From the NCBI GenBank assembly GCA_021324295.1, contig JAJPJJ010000119.1:62001-126000 (forward strand): a stretch of 64,000 nucleotides of DNA, written 5' to 3'. Shown here one piece after another: positions 20,447 to 49,638 of the stretch. Within the stretch, counting starts at the first letter, position 1. Each line of letters opens with the position of its first letter. The position numbers were made by a program, and so were the translations under genes. Origin of the DNA: Bacillota bacterium (lineage in GTDB: Bacteria > Sysuimicrobiota > Sysuimicrobiia > Sysuimicrobiales > Segetimicrobiaceae). Under the pieces are notes generated by a model. The model was not told the origin of the DNA. It saw only the letters and a list, made by a program, of their open reading frames with translations, and did no database searches.

Positions 20447-20800
20447 CTACCGGCTGACCGGCGTGACCGCCGCCGTATCCTCCTCGCCGGTCCGGATCCG
20501 GTAGACCTTGTCCACGGGCAGCACGAAGATCTTCCCGTCGCCGACCTCTCCGGTGCGGGCCGCCTCCATGATCGCCCGCACGGTCGGCGCGACGAAGTGG
20601 TCAGACACCCCGATCTCGAACCGCACCTTCTCGGTCAGCTCCACCTTGACCGTCGTGCCGCGGTAGGTCTCCACGCGCTCCAGCTCTCCCCCATGACCCT
20701 GCACCCGGCTCAGGGACAGCCCCCGCACCTGCGCGCGGTAGAGCGCCTCCAGGACGTCGTTCACCCGGTCGGGGCGGACGATCGCGACGATCAGCTTCAT
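20447..20800 (-). CDS. glnK: PII nitrogen-regulatory protein (GlnK type)
   Basis: A 117-residue PII trimer subunit that senses 2-oxoglutarate and ATP/ADP and blocks the Amt channel when nitrogen is ample. Family motifs are MKLIVAIVRPDRVNDVLEAL, ARTGEVGDGKIFVLPV (with the conserved Lys90) and RIRTGE. The T-loop reads YRGTTVKVELTEK; position 51, the uridylylated Tyr of enteric GlnB/GlnK, is Val, so control by uridylylation at that residue is ruled out. It overlaps amt by 4 bp, the usual amt-glnK pair (here amt first). Confidence 0.93.
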   Translation of the reverse strand: MKLIVAIVRPDRVNDVLEALYRAQVRGLSLSRVQGHGGELERVETYRGTTVKVELTEKVRFEIGVSDHFVAPTVRAIMEAARTGEVGDGKIFVLPVDKVYRIRTGEEDTAAVTPVSR

Positions 20801-22092
20801 GCGTCGGCTCCTGCGGGCTGCAGCGCCGGCTCCGCGGAGACCTCCGGGAGCACCAGCACCGCGCCCTCGCCGGCGGTGTACGGCTCCTCGCCGTGCTGCG
20901 TCGAGTCCATGCCGAGCGCCTGCTCGTGATCGCTCGCGCGCAGCGGCGTGATCGCCCCGATCGCCTTGAGGAGCACCAGGGTCCCGACCGCGCTGTAGGC
21001 CGCGGCCCCCAGGACCGCGAGGATCTGGATCGCGACCTGCTGCGGGTTGCCCGCAACGAGCCCGCTCTGCACTCCGTTCCACGCCTTCACGGCGAAGACG
21101 CCCGTGAGCACCGCCCCGGTCGCCCCTCCGACCGCGTGCCCGGCGAAGACGTCGAGGGACTCATCGATGGGCGTCCGCGCGCGCCACTGCATCGCGACGT
21201 AACTGGGAAGCGCGCCGAGCGCCCCCATCACGAGCGCCCAGACCGGAGGCACGAACCCCGACGCCGGGGTGATCACCACGAGCCCGACGACGATCGCGCT
21301 CGCGACCCCCATCGCCGTGACCTTGCCGATGCGCGCCAGGTCCAGCAGCGCCCACGCCACGAGCGCCGCCCCGGGCGCGAGGAAGGTGTTCACGAAGGCG
21401 AGCGCCGCGGAGGCGGTCGACGCCACGGCGCTCCCCCCGTTGAACCCGAACCACCCGAACCACAGCAGCGCGGCCCCGAGCAGCACGAAGGGCAGATTCC
21501 CCGGCAGGAACGCCTGGCGGCCGTAGTCCTTGCGGTTCCCCACGACGAGCGCCGCGACCATCGCCGCGACGCCGGCGTTGACGTGCACGACCGTGCCCCC
21601 CGCGAAGTCCAGCGCGCCGAGCCTCCCGAGCCACCCGCCGCCCCACACCCAGTGCGCGATCGGCGCGTACACGCCGACGACCCACAGCGTGATGAACGCG
21701 AGGTAGGCGCGAAACCGCATCCGCCCGACGACGCCGCCGGAGACGAGCGCGGTCGTGATCACGGCGAACGTGGCCTGGAACGCCATGTAGACCACGTGCG
21801 AGATCGTGGGGCCGAGCGGCTGGCCCGCGGCGAGATCGACGCCCCGCAGCAGCGCCCACCGGAGGTCGCCCACGAGGGCGCCCCCCGGGCTGAACGCCAG
21901 CGAGTACCCGACAAGCGCCCAGGTCACCAGCGTGAACCCGAGGGTGGCGAAGCTCATCAGCATCGTGTTGAGGATGTGCTTGCTCCCCGCCATGCCGCCG
22001 TAGAAGAGCCCCAGCGCGGGGGTCATCAGCAGCACGAGCGCGGTGGAGGTCATCATCCAGGCCAGGTCGGCCGCGTTGAGGTGTCCGGTCAC
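20797..22092 (-). CDS. amt: Ammonium transporter Amt
   Basis: An Amt/Mep/Rh channel of 431 residues with eleven expected spans. Signature segments are AWMMTSTALVLLMTPALGLFYGGM, the amt signature DFAGGTVVHVNAGVAAMVAALVVG and FGWFGFNGGS. The GTG giving VTGHLNAADLAWMM follows GAGGAGGGG. A second GTG two codons earlier is possible. glnK overlaps downstream. Expression is probably set by the long leader upstream, which carries a strong promoter, a stable hairpin and an intrinsic terminator before the start codon. Confidence 0.95.
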   Translation of the reverse strand: MTGHLNAADLAWMMTSTALVLLMTPALGLFYGGMAGSKHILNTMLMSFATLGFTLVTWALVGYSLAFSPGGALVGDLRWALLRGVDLAAGQPLGPTISHVVYMAFQATFAVITTALVSGGVVGRMRFRAYLAFITLWVVGVYAPIAHWVWGGGWLGRLGALDFAGGTVVHVNAGVAAMVAALVVGNRKDYGRQAFLPGNLPFVLLGAALLWFGWFGFNGGSAVASTASAALAFVNTFLAPGAALVAWALLDLARIGKVTAMGVASAIVVGLVVITPASGFVPPVWALVMGALGALPSYVAMQWRARTPIDESLDVFAGHAVGGATGAVLTGVFAVKAWNGVQSGLVAGNPQQVAIQILAVLGAAAYSAVGTLVLLKAIGAITPLRASDHEQALGMDSTQHGEEPYTAGEGAVLVLPEVSAEPALQPAGADA

Positions 22093-22364
22093 GCTCACCC
22101 CTCCTCGTCGTGTCTTCACTGTGCACACGAAAACGCCTCCGCGCCGGAGGGGAGCGGAGGCGTCACGACCGGAGCACCCGCAGGGTTGCGCGGGACACAA
22201 ACGGCCACCCGGCTCGACGCCGGTGGCCGCGGTCCCGTCACCCATCCAGCCGGCGACCTGCGCCCGCCGCGCGAGCCAGAACGCGCTCCCCGGGGGCGAC
22301 ACGCCCCTCCGGTTGGCGTCGTGGCCGTCGCGTGATGCAGTCGTCGCGGACTGGCTTGCCTGCT
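22093..22364 (-). promoter_or_regulatory. Structured 5' leader of amt-glnK (candidate riboswitch or attenuator)
   Basis: About 270 nt of untranslated RNA between the promoter and the amt GTG. The main fold is a hairpin, with GGCCACC and GGC arms (22203-22213) pairing with GCC and GGTGGCC (22219-22228) around a TCGAC-type loop, enclosed by GGGAC/GTCCC (22192-22196 with 22232-22236). A small CGCA-ACCC-TGCG stem follows, then the terminator at 22130-22162. An aptamer-like fold just before a terminator is the layout of transcriptional attenuation. I could not assign a known class. Confidence 0.55.
22130..22162 (-). terminator. Intrinsic terminator inside the amt leader
   Basis: On the minus strand CGCCTCCGC (22154-22162) pairs with GCGGAGGCG (22134-22142) around 11 nt, and is followed by TTTT (22130-22133). 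A 9-bp GC stem plus U-run is a classical Rho-independent terminator. Lying 38 bp before the amt start codon, it must be conditionally bypassed for amt to be made. Confidence 0.7.
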
Positions 22365-22392
22365 ATCATACCGTGTTTGCGGACCCTGTCAA
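22365..22392 (-). promoter_or_regulatory. Near-consensus promoter of amt-glnK
   Basis: Minus strand TTGACA (22387-22392), 16-bp spacer, TATGAT (22365-22370). It is 273 bp upstream of the amt start and reads through the structured leader. Confidence 0.75.
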
Positions 22393-22443
22393 GAGCGAGC
22401 CCGCGGCGGAGGAGTTCCTCCGCGATCCATAGAAGGCGCCCTC

Positions 22444-23385
22444 ATGTCGCACGCCGTCATGGCCGCGGCGAACGCCACGATCGAGCACCCCTCGGGGCGC
22501 CGCGGCCTCGCGCGCCGGCGGCGGGAGGTCCGCACGGCCTACCTGCTCCTGGCCCCGGCCGCGCTGCTCGTCTTCGGCGTCCTCGCGTACCCGGTCGGCT
22601 GGGAGGTCTGGACCAGCCTCACGAGCTCGTTCGTGGGCGGCTCCGCCGCCGCGTTCGTGGGCCTCCGGAACTACGCCGAGTTCGTCCGCGACGCGGAGTT
22701 CTGGCGCGCCGCGGCCAACACGCTCGGCTACCTCGTGCTCACGACCGTGCTGAAGCTCGCCCTGGGGATCGCCGTGGCGTTGCTGCTCTCCCGGCCGTTC
22801 CCCGGGCGGCCGGTCGCCTTCATCGCCGCGTTCCTGCCGTGGGCGTACCCCGGCGGCCTGGGGCTGGTGGGCTGGTACTGGTTCATGATCCCCCCGCTGC
22901 ACAACGCGTACTCCGAGTTCATGTCCGACCTCCGGTACGCCACCGACGCGCTCCTGGGGCAGGAGACCTGGCGCTTCCTCACGCTGGTCGCGTTCAACGT
23001 CTGGCGCGGCGGGTCGTTCGTCGGGATCTTCCTCCTCGCCGCGCTGAACGGGATCCCGCAGGACCTCTTCGACTACGCCGCGCTCGAAGTCCGCAGCGGG
23101 TGGCGGAAGTTCTGGATGGTCACCGTGCCCCTCCTGCGTCCGTTCCTCGCGCTCGCCGCGTTCCTCTCGATCGTCACCGCGGTCACGGACCTGGGCCACG
23201 TGTACCTGCAGTCGGGGATGCGCATCACGTACCCGATCGTCTGGACCCAGGCGTTCCACCTCGCGATCATCGGCGGGGAGTGGGGGAAGGCGGCGGCGGA
23301 GTCGCTGATCCTGCTGCCGGTCCTCGTCCTCATCCTCTTCGTGTGCTTCTGGCTGTTCGAGCCGCTCGAGGAGGACCCGCTGTGA
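22444..23385 (+). CDS. Sugar ABC transporter permease, MalF type
   Basis: One of two inner-membrane subunits of a CUT1-type importer, 313 residues. It has a long cytoplasmic N-terminus, six expected spans and the EAA loop that docks the ATPase (LFDYAALEVRSGWRKFWMVTVPLLRP near residue 208). It overlaps the MalG-type gene by 4 bp. No binding protein or ATPase is next to it, so it must use partners encoded elsewhere. The start ATG has only a weak ribosome site. It is divergent from amt. Confidence 0.87.
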   Translation: MSHAVMAAANATIEHPSGRRGLARRRREVRTAYLLLAPAALLVFGVLAYPVGWEVWTSLTSSFVGGSAAAFVGLRNYAEFVRDAEFWRAAANTLGYLVLTTVLKLALGIAVALLLSRPFPGRPVAFIAAFLPWAYPGGLGLVGWYWFMIPPLHNAYSEFMSDLRYATDALLGQETWRFLTLVAFNVWRGGSFVGIFLLAALNGIPQDLFDYAALEVRSGWRKFWMVTVPLLRPFLALAAFLSIVTAVTDLGHVYLQSGMRITYPIVWTQAFHLAIIGGEWGKAAAESLILLPVLVLILFVCFWLFEPLEEDPL

Positions 23386-43520: not shown

Positions 43521-44942
43521 CTACTGGTTGAGCAGGTTCAGGACGAGGTAGTTGGCCGCCGCGCTCCCGAACCCCGTCACGAGGTCGTACCCGGAGCCCG
43601 CGGCGTGCCCGTTGCTCCCGTAGACGATGTCGAAGTAATCCGTTCCGTATACCGCGGGCAGAGCCGCGTTGTACTCGGGTGCGCCGGCGCTGCTGCCCGG
43701 GCTGACCGACAGGGTCGGCTTGGAACTCTGCATGCGCGCGTAGTCCGCGAGCGCGATGAGCCCGGCCCAGGCGGGAGCCGCCGCGCTCGTCCCGCCGACC
43801 TGGAACCACCCTGTCTCGCCGCTGTAGGGCGTGGTATCGTATACCGCCAGGCCCGTGCTCGGGTTGGCGTCCAGGGCGACGTCCGGGGTCGCCCGGAACC
43901 CGCCGGTGTTCGGGAAGCTCGCGTACGAGTTCGCGTAGAAGTAGGTCTGATAGGCGGGCTCGGTCTCGTAGATGCTGTCCCCGCCCCCGGACCCGCTCCA
44001 CGCCGTCTCGGGCGCCGGCTGGCCGGCGCACGTCGACGATGCGAACGCGACCGTGCCGGCGGTCGTGCGGTTGCCCTGAGCATCGAGGCACAGCGTGGTG
44101 CCGCCGGCGGCGATCACGTTGGGCGATACCGCCGGCCAGATCGTGCCGGCGCCGCCGTCCCCGCTGGCCGCCACAAATGTCACGCCGGCGTGGCTGAAGT
44201 ACGAGTCGTAGTCGAACTCGAGCGAGAACTCCCGGGCCCCCCAGCTCATCGAGACGACGTGCGCGCCCGCGGCCACCGCGCTGTTCGACGCGGTCAATAG
44301 ATCGCCCAGGCTGTTCGAATTGGCCTCAGCGAGGACGATGTCCGCGTCCGGCGCGACGGCGTGGGCCCACTCCACGTCGAGCGAAGCTTCCAACTCCCAG
44401 CCGCCGGTCGGGTCCTGTCCCGGGGTGCAGCCGCCGCCGCCGCCGCCCTTGCCGCCCTTGTGGCCTCCGGTGGCGCCCCGCGCGAGCGGGCTCGCGGCCG
44501 CGGCCGCGGGCGGCCCCACGATCGAGCCTGTCTGGCAGATCTTCACGAAGCACGGGTGCGGCCCGCCCGAGATGGTGCACGGGTCGCCGGCGGTGAGCCC
44601 GTGCATCGAGGCGATGCCCATCTGGGTGATGAAGACCGAGAGGTCGTTCCAGATGGTCGGGGCATCGTAGGCGTCCACGATCGCGATGACGGCCGCCTTC
44701 CCCTGGCCGGGATTCCCGCCCGTGATCCCCTGCTGGTAGAGCTGGTCGATCCCGTACGCGCCTCTGATCTGGGCGGGCGTGTACCCGTTGCCGACGTACG
44801 TCGAGGTGGCGCCCCCCTTCACGTGGATGGGGTGGTACGCGACGATGCGCCGTAGATCGGGAGGCTGGACCGCCAGAGAGGACGTCGCCGAGAGCAAGAG
44901 AGCTACGGAGCAGGTTGCGGCGATGCGTGCGGCGCGCCACAT
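43521..44942 (-). CDS. Secreted sedolisin-type (S53) serine-carboxyl protease
   Basis: 473 residues with a signal peptide (AATCSVALLLSATSSLAV). The catalytic set of S53 proteases is visible: Glu185 and Asp189 in LEASLDVEW, the oxyanion Asp262 in ASGDGG, and Ser386 in GGTSAAAPAW. The C-terminal calcium-site region DIVYGSNGHAAGSGYDLVTGFGS is also there. Unlike most sedolisins it has no 150-200-residue pro-domain; only about 30 residues separate the signal from the catalytic fold. A Lys/Gly-rich stretch (158-171) interrupts the domain before the Glu motif. I chose the ATG after GGGGGGAGTGCCT. Confidence 0.87.
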   Translation of the reverse strand: MWRAARIAATCSVALLLSATSSLAVQPPDLRRIVAYHPIHVKGGATSTYVGNGYTPAQIRGAYGIDQLYQQGITGGNPGQGKAAVIAIVDAYDAPTIWNDLSVFITQMGIASMHGLTAGDPCTISGGPHPCFVKICQTGSIVGPPAAAAASPLARGATGGHKGGKGGGGGGCTPGQDPTGGWELEASLDVEWAHAVAPDADIVLAEANSNSLGDLLTASNSAVAAGAHVVSMSWGAREFSLEFDYDSYFSHAGVTFVAASGDGGAGTIWPAVSPNVIAAGGTTLCLDAQGNRTTAGTVAFASSTCAGQPAPETAWSGSGGGDSIYETEPAYQTYFYANSYASFPNTGGFRATPDVALDANPSTGLAVYDTTPYSGETGWFQVGGTSAAAPAWAGLIALADYARMQSSKPTLSVSPGSSAGAPEYNAALPAVYGTDYFDIVYGSNGHAAGSGYDLVTGFGSAAANYLVLNLLNQ

Positions 44943-45608
44943 AGGCACTCCCCCCTGCCCGCTGCGTCCGCGGGCCTCGTGCATGGCCACACCGTGCGCC
45001 CTGCGCGCAGCAGAAAACCCGGCGCAGAGCATCTCCGGCCGGGTTCGCCACTCGCTCCGTGCAGCCCGAGGCGACCATCTAGGGAGTGCACATCATCGCG
45101 TCCAGGAGAGATCGAGCCCTACATGCTGCCTGCCTGTGCGCCTCCGCCCCCAACGCCTGCGAGGGAGCCCGCCGTCCCGGGCCGGCTGCCCGGCGCCCTC
45201 GCGGCGATCTCGGTTGTCGGATCCAGAAAGCTTCTGATGCGCTGGAGCGAGATCCCGAGCCTCTGTCGTGCTCGGTAACGATGCTCAAGGAAATCCGATT
45301 ATCCCTGCGCCGGCAGCCCGCGCCGGCCGCGTGGTGGCCGTTTACTTCGCCTCGCCCGCGCCGACTCCTCCCTCACGGACGCTTCCGGAAAACCTCTCGA
45401 GACGTCGACAGACCGGGACGGCGCCGAGGCCTCTGCGGAGGCGGGGTGGAGGATCACCCGAACCCGGCCGCCAGCCGCAGGAACCAAACCGCGCCCGCGC
45501 CGCCTGGCATAGCGGACGCGAGGCCGGCGTTCCACCGAGAGGATACCGCAGAGGAGGATCGCAGGCCCCTCGTGCTGGCCGCGTTCGTCGCAGCAGCGGG
45601 GGCTTCCC
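44943..45608. other. Intergenic region, mostly unassigned
   Basis: 666 bp between divergent genes. The only feature I can support is an intrinsic terminator in the protease leader (45014-45045). Open frames here lack ribosome sites and recognisable sequence, and composition is less GC-biased around 45260-45310. I see no gene. Confidence 0.6.
45014..45045 (-). terminator. Intrinsic terminator in the protease gene leader
   Basis: On the minus strand AACCCGGC (45038-45045) pairs with GCCGGGTT (45016-45023) around a 14-nt loop, followed by TTTT. It lies about 72 bp upstream of the protease ATG and reads toward it, so it would act as an attenuator unless the transcription start is further downstream. 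No divergent gene ends here. Confidence 0.6.
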
Positions 45609-49441: not shown

Positions 49442-49536
49442 TGGCGGAGGGGAGTGGGAATCGAACCCACCGCGAACCCCAAGGGCCCGCCGGCAGTTTT
49501 GAAGACTGCGAAGGCCACCAGGCCCCATGCCCCTCC
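49442..49536 (-). tRNA. selC: tRNA-Sec (UCA anticodon)
   Basis: A 95-nt gene with all marks of bacterial tRNA-Sec. The acceptor arm GGAGGGGC pairs with TCCCCTCC (seven pairs and one mismatch at position 8), the discriminator is G, and CCA is encoded. The D stem is long (6 bp, GGGGCC with GGCCTT using two G-U pairs) with a 4-nt loop. The anticodon arm is GCAGT-CTTCAAA-ACTGC, giving anticodon TCA. A long GC variable arm and a GTGGG-TTCGATT-CCCAC T arm follow. A TAGAAT box (49547-49552) lies 10 bp upstream. It inserts selenocysteine at UGA and needs SelA and SelB, both encoded 11-14 kb away here. Confidence 0.96.
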
Positions 49537-49638
49537 GGCTAGCCACATTCTACTACAGAGGGGCACCCGCCGTGGCCGGACACGCGACCGTCGCGGCGCC
49601 CGGCTGCCCGACGGGGTGCGTCGTCGCAGCGGGCGTCG

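Follow-up and report, generated by a model that had tools for sequence, protein, structure and literature searches.

A predicted ANTAR-controlled antitermination leader with variant hexaloops upstream of amt-glnK in Sysuimicrobiota

Introduction

The RNA targets of ANTAR-domain regulators are built from hexaloop hairpins, the last of which is mutually exclusive with a terminator (PMC3369931, PMC7496416), and such targets are known ahead of genes for ammonium transporters, P-II proteins, and glutamine and glutamate synthases (PMC3369931). In the EutV system, adenine at loop position 1 (A1) is needed for binding (PMC3369931), and the EutV-RNA structure reveals that guanine at position 4 (G4) is the only base contacted specifically, that A1 makes no contact with the protein, and that Met172 is essential for RNA binding (PMC8934654).

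Here we examine the leader of an amt-glnK operon from Sysuimicrobiota (CSP1-3), a phylum of one class and one order (PMC11604079), within the 64,000-nucleotide stretch of DNA that we call the window. The leader resembles the described targets of EutV (eut), NasR (nasF) and AmiR (ami; Ramesh et al. 2012, PMC3369931) in having hexaloops with G4, C:G closing pairs and a hairpin whose 3' arm is shared with a terminator, and it resembles these dual-hexaloop systems further in that nitrogen genes (amt, P-II, glnA) lie downstream and a REC-ANTAR regulator with a sensor kinase is encoded in the genome. Unlike those targets, loop position 1 in the phylum carries C, or in some first hairpins (P1) U or G, and not A, and, unlike the canonical dual motif, many phylum sites consist of one hairpin-terminator unit or of tandem ones, with no separate P1. 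We predict, with a probability of about 0.86, that the amt leader of the window is an ANTAR-controlled antitermination leader.

Results

Architecture of the amt leader

The operon lies on the minus strand, with the ammonium transporter gene amt at 20797-22092 (PF00909, 6.6e-100; TIGR00836 above its cut-off), starting at a GTG at 22092, and the P-II nitrogen regulator gene glnK at 20447-20800 (PF00543, 1.1e-24), overlapping the end of amt. These matches agree with the gene identities in the original prediction, as does the sigma-70-type promoter TTGACA-N16-TATGAT (22365-22392, minus strand; TTGACA at 22387-22392, TATGAT at 22365-22370), which matches 11 of 12 consensus positions where shuffled sequences gave an expectation of 0.0. 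Between promoter and amt lies a minus-strand leader of about 270 nt. The original prediction had described it as a structured, riboswitch-like leader with a bulged hairpin, a CGCA-ACCC-TGCG stem and a 9-bp terminator with a U-run 38 bp before amt. The first two are present (at 22203-22228 and 22179-22190), and so is the terminator, though its stem has 10 bp and lies about 40 nt from the GTG. The folding energy of the whole leader is modest (z = -1.9, with 8 of 200 shuffles equally good), so that by energy alone the term "structured" is weakly founded; what recurs among relatives is a small hexaloop hairpin that shares its 3' arm with a terminator.

Three hairpins in the window leader, missing from the original prediction, carry hexaloops with G at position 4 (3/3), and finding three of the CNNGAN type in one leader has P = 0.0006 (0.06% of dinucleotide shuffles). 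The first, P1 (CAGTC-CGCGAC-GACTG, 22338-22353, minus strand), has 5 bp, a C:G closing pair and a loop with C1, G4 and A5, and related sequences in two relatives, AGTCCGCGCCGAC (G002) and GTCCTCGCCGAC (G008), lie equally far from the promoter. The second, H1 (GGC-CACGAC-GCC, 22315-22326, minus strand), follows P1 after 11 nt and has 3 bp, again closed by C:G; the hairpin adjoining it (22301-22319) has no U-tract, so the H1 unit is not a clear terminator in the window. Further along, the bulged hairpin GGCCACCGGCGTCGAGCCGGGTGGCC-GTTTG (22203-22228, minus strand; -24.5 kcal/mol) is followed by GTTTGTGT, a weak U-tract, and is probably a first terminator, T1, judging from its alignment with the U-tract-bearing T1 terminators of G002 and G008 (GGCGTTTTTTT and GGCGTTTTTC).

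The third hexaloop hairpin, H2 (GGU-CGUGAC-GCC, 22159-22170, minus strand), is the putative antiterminator, and it is homologous in position and sequence to GAGGC-CGGGAC-GCCTC, GGGGC-CGGGAC-GCC and other hairpins of relatives. Its 3' arm also belongs to T2, the intrinsic terminator ACGCCTCCGC...GCGGAGGCGT-TTTC (22130-22163, minus strand), which was picked up by the terminator scan and has a 10-bp stem (22133-22163; -23.2 kcal/mol) and a U-tract (TTTTC) reaching 22130; the shared ACGCC makes H2 and T2 mutually exclusive. T2 closely matches a site in another genome of the phylum (L145 in G036).

The weak points of the ANTAR reading for this copy are its lack of A1, the missing U-tract beside H1, and H2 itself, which has only 3 bp and a U.G closing pair as against C:G in P1 and H1. 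A copy that has decayed, while the ANTAR target is genuine elsewhere in the phylum, would show just such an H2, too weak to compete with a T2 of -23 kcal/mol, and amt would then be constitutively attenuated or otherwise controlled. G002 and G008, which keep a strong T1 and an H2 of 4-5 bp, seem to have lost T2, and the glnA unit of the window's own genome is strong, unlike H2 of the window. Against decay, all three C1/G4 loops remain at the shuffle probability given above and P1 is intact, and we consider it unlikely that this leader has lost its function as an ANTAR target.

Homologous leaders and the riboswitch alternative

The comparison covered 43 genomes of the order, which are the whole phylum in our collection. 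Orthologues of amt were found in seven of them, and the pattern search described below added an eighth leader (G033). All amt leaders of the relatives listed (7/7) have a TTGACA promoter in front, followed by one or two small hexaloop hairpins whose 3' arm starts a terminator-like hairpin. Examples with two hairpins are GGGC-CGAGAA-GCCC and GGGGC-CGGGAC-GCC in G021, CGGGC-CGTGAC-GCCCG and CGGGC-CGCGAC-GCCCG (with poor U-tracts) in G026, and GGGC-CACGAA-GCCC and GGGGC-CGGGAC-GCCTC in G027. In several relatives P1 is absent and there are only single or tandem hairpin-terminator units. Leader length ranges from about 110 to about 300 nt, the remainder outside the hairpins being unshared. Among the shortest, at about 110 nt, is that of G034, which consists of one hairpin (GGGC-CGCGAC-GCCC) within one perfect terminator (CGCGACGCCC...GGGCGTCGCGG-CTTTTTT).

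A DNA search of the relatives with the window leader as query gave chance matches only, as sequence outside the small hairpins changes quickly, and most of the large minimum-free-energy fold predicted for the window leader is missing from the homologous amt leaders. In the covariation check proposed with the original prediction, the stem of the small hairpin covaries, and the large fold is not shared. That a conditional-terminator leader stands before nitrogen-uptake genes is supported, since the homologues keep the promoter, the antiterminator hairpin and the terminator.

The riboswitch-like part of the original prediction fares differently. A 270-nt aptamer that responds to glutamine or some other nitrogen-related ligand and thereby controls the terminator would account for the length and GC-richness of the leader, its many predicted stems and the terminator ahead of nitrogen genes, and leader control of nitrogen genes is something that the glutamine (glnA RNA) and SAM-clan riboswitches share with this locus, along with a loose resemblance in the CAACC...GGGTGC stretch. 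Unlike those riboswitches, the window leader has no Rfam match at gathering or relaxed thresholds, and 21900-22500 shows no riboswitch match up to E = 10. The SAM-clan likeness was rejected, as the CAACC...GGGTGC stretch is absent from the leaders of relatives. Since leaders can be as short as that of G034, the large central fold is not common to relatives, the conserved part falls short of the usual size of an aptamer, and the sites cluster beside ANTAR genes (below), we regard a metabolite riboswitch as very improbable; the conserved part matches an ANTAR target instead.

The same window holds two other RNA elements. A c-di-GMP-II riboswitch (45028-45112, minus strand) scores 54.5, just above the Rfam gathering threshold of 53.5, and lies immediately ahead of a gene for a subtilase-family protease (43521-45032; PF00082, 1.1e-12), and a selenocysteine tRNA (anticodon TCA; 49442-49537, minus strand) was found by both Rfam and ARAGORN.

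A phylum-wide set of hairpin-terminator units

Searching the 43 genomes for GGC-CNNGAM-GCC with a terminator after it gave matches in 27 of them, with a few stray matches for the reversed pattern used as control and none at all in the four genomes without an ANTAR gene (genus g9). For 24 of the 51 distinct sites there is an ANTAR gene no more than 5 kb away, as against 0.41 expected (P ~6e-34). The genes downstream include amt, glnA, the REC-ANTAR gene itself, an amino-acid permease gene and a second amt-like transporter gene with a signal peptide (both named from sequence), and a glutamate-synthase-like gene that is probably gltB. Among 55 hairpins, all closed by C:G, the outer stem pairs show covariation at a score that none of 500 shuffles attained, with register 0 pairing best; this was tested on the outer pairs, the inner three being invariant and partly fixed by the search pattern.

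The window's own genome has one REC-ANTAR regulator with a GAF-HisKA_2 kinase, encoded on a different contig (C40) from the window (C106), a point against the ANTAR reading. The strong glnA unit lies 2.5 kb downstream of this single kinase/REC-ANTAR pair, and its leader has P1 (GGTAC-UGGGAC-GUACC), P2 (AGGGGC-CGGGAC-GCCCUU) and a terminator; strong versions of the terminator-exclusive hairpin exist both here and in relatives. No P1 common to all sites was found upstream of them, where hexaloops occur no more often than loops of other sizes, save in glnA leaders within the window genome's own family. Spacing varies: P1 and P2 are directly adjacent in the own-genome glnA leader, the window has its 11-nt linker between P1 and H1, and many other sites have no recognisable P1.

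Several side observations concern these clusters. An NAD synthetase gene (PF02540; L173:10167-11930 on C40) follows glnA in the attenuated cluster. The REC-ANTAR frame on the same contig (L173:5572-7341) extends about 390 residues beyond the ANTAR domain with no Pfam match, and long open frames occur likewise at several ANTAR genes of that family.

Could the CNNGAN hairpins be recognised by an RNA-binding antiterminator of some other kind? The departure of the loop from A1 and the single hairpin, not two, at several sites would be compatible with this. The proximity of 24 of the 51 sites to ANTAR genes argues against it, several sites being leaders of an ANTAR gene itself, and so does the match to ANTAR targets in hexaloop size, C:G closing pair and G4, the sole base-specific contact of EutV (PMC8934654). 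We give such a protein very little credence, and retain the ANTAR reading.

Loop position 1 and ANTAR residue 172

The phylum loops read C1-N-N-G4-A5, compared with the canonical A1-N-N-G4, and the canonical A is replaced by C in the window and at nearly all sites. A scan around the ANTAR genes of the phylum with no fixed loop sequence, keeping terminators that scored at least 28 and had an overlapping hexaloop, gave the loop CNNGA[CAT] in about 16 of 21 strong cases and a loop with A1 and G4 in 0 of 21. The A1 version of the search pattern has four sites in the phylum, none of them near an ANTAR gene.

The ANTAR domain of the window genome keeps most of the residues with which EutV contacts RNA (6WW6; PMC8934654), namely Arg, Lys and Glu around 142-160 and Asn173/Arg175. 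Unlike in EutV, the position of Met172 is mostly Arg in ANTAR domains of the phylum, rarely Gln or Lys, and that of Tyr164 is mostly Phe. The same scan, with G4 required, revealed terminator-overlapping hexaloops beside ANTAR genes in Nitrospirales, Desulfobacterium and Gammaproteobacteria as well; unlike the phylum sites, these have loops with A1 (AATGGC, AATGAC, AACGAA, AACGGC) and adjoin ANTAR domains with Met at the position of EutV Met172. Separately, an ANTAR subfamily with Gln at this position (QSQKEN or RSQNEN) was seen in several phyla (L123, L127, L137, L200, and in Chloroflexi, e.g., L315).

Across 29 genomes of other phyla, the C1 pattern gave chance-like matches except in one Chloroflexi genome. 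Of 20 genomes from the order of that genome, 6 have C1 units; these precede glnA, LysE-like, permease and amt genes, and some of them have two adjacent C1 hexaloops with linkers of 7-11 nt. LysE-family-like exporter genes (named from sequence) follow C1 units in both phyla (L283, L288, L157), once ahead of glnA. All six C1-bearing genomes have an ANTAR domain of an Arg type (QAR; Fisher P = 0.014), and most also hold Met- and Gln-type copies. Since Arg-type ANTARs also occur in several genomes without C1 units, six of which carry another Arg subtype (SRSRR), the link between Arg172 and C1 in this order is a suggestive hypothesis.

Discussion

The C1 loops make the element of this phylum a variant of the known ANTAR target type. 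Reading the promoter, hairpins, terminator, shared arm, phylum-wide regulon and linkage to ANTAR genes from the sequences, we propose that transcription would start at the TTGACA/TATGAT promoter and by default end at the intrinsic terminator or terminators before amt. The partner GAF-HisKA_2 kinase, presumably in response to nitrogen status, would phosphorylate the REC-ANTAR response regulator, which could then bind the hexaloops in the nascent RNA and stabilise the small hairpins. As the 3' arm of the antiterminator is also the 5' arm of the terminator, the latter would be blocked and amt-glnK transcribed, so that the predicted direction of control is activation by the phosphorylated regulator. 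The same regulator would control glnA as well; in relatives its targets would include other nitrogen genes and the gene that encodes it.

A C1 hexaloop read by an ANTAR domain with Arg at the position of EutV Met172 may constitute a distinct recognition code, largely separate from that of A1 and Met, which would run a nitrogen regulon across the phylum and reappear in an order of Chloroflexi where Met-, Gln- and Arg-type ANTARs stand side by side; we hold this as a tentative proposal, with the chances slightly below even. A1 and Met172 change together here, and the phylum is thus a natural experiment on which part of the ANTAR domain reads the loop. Sites with C1 are likely to be overlooked by covariance models in which A1 is required. 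For the phylum itself, which is uncultured, these observations suggest how nitrogen uptake and assimilation may be controlled, namely through a single two-component system that binds RNA and acts at terminators.
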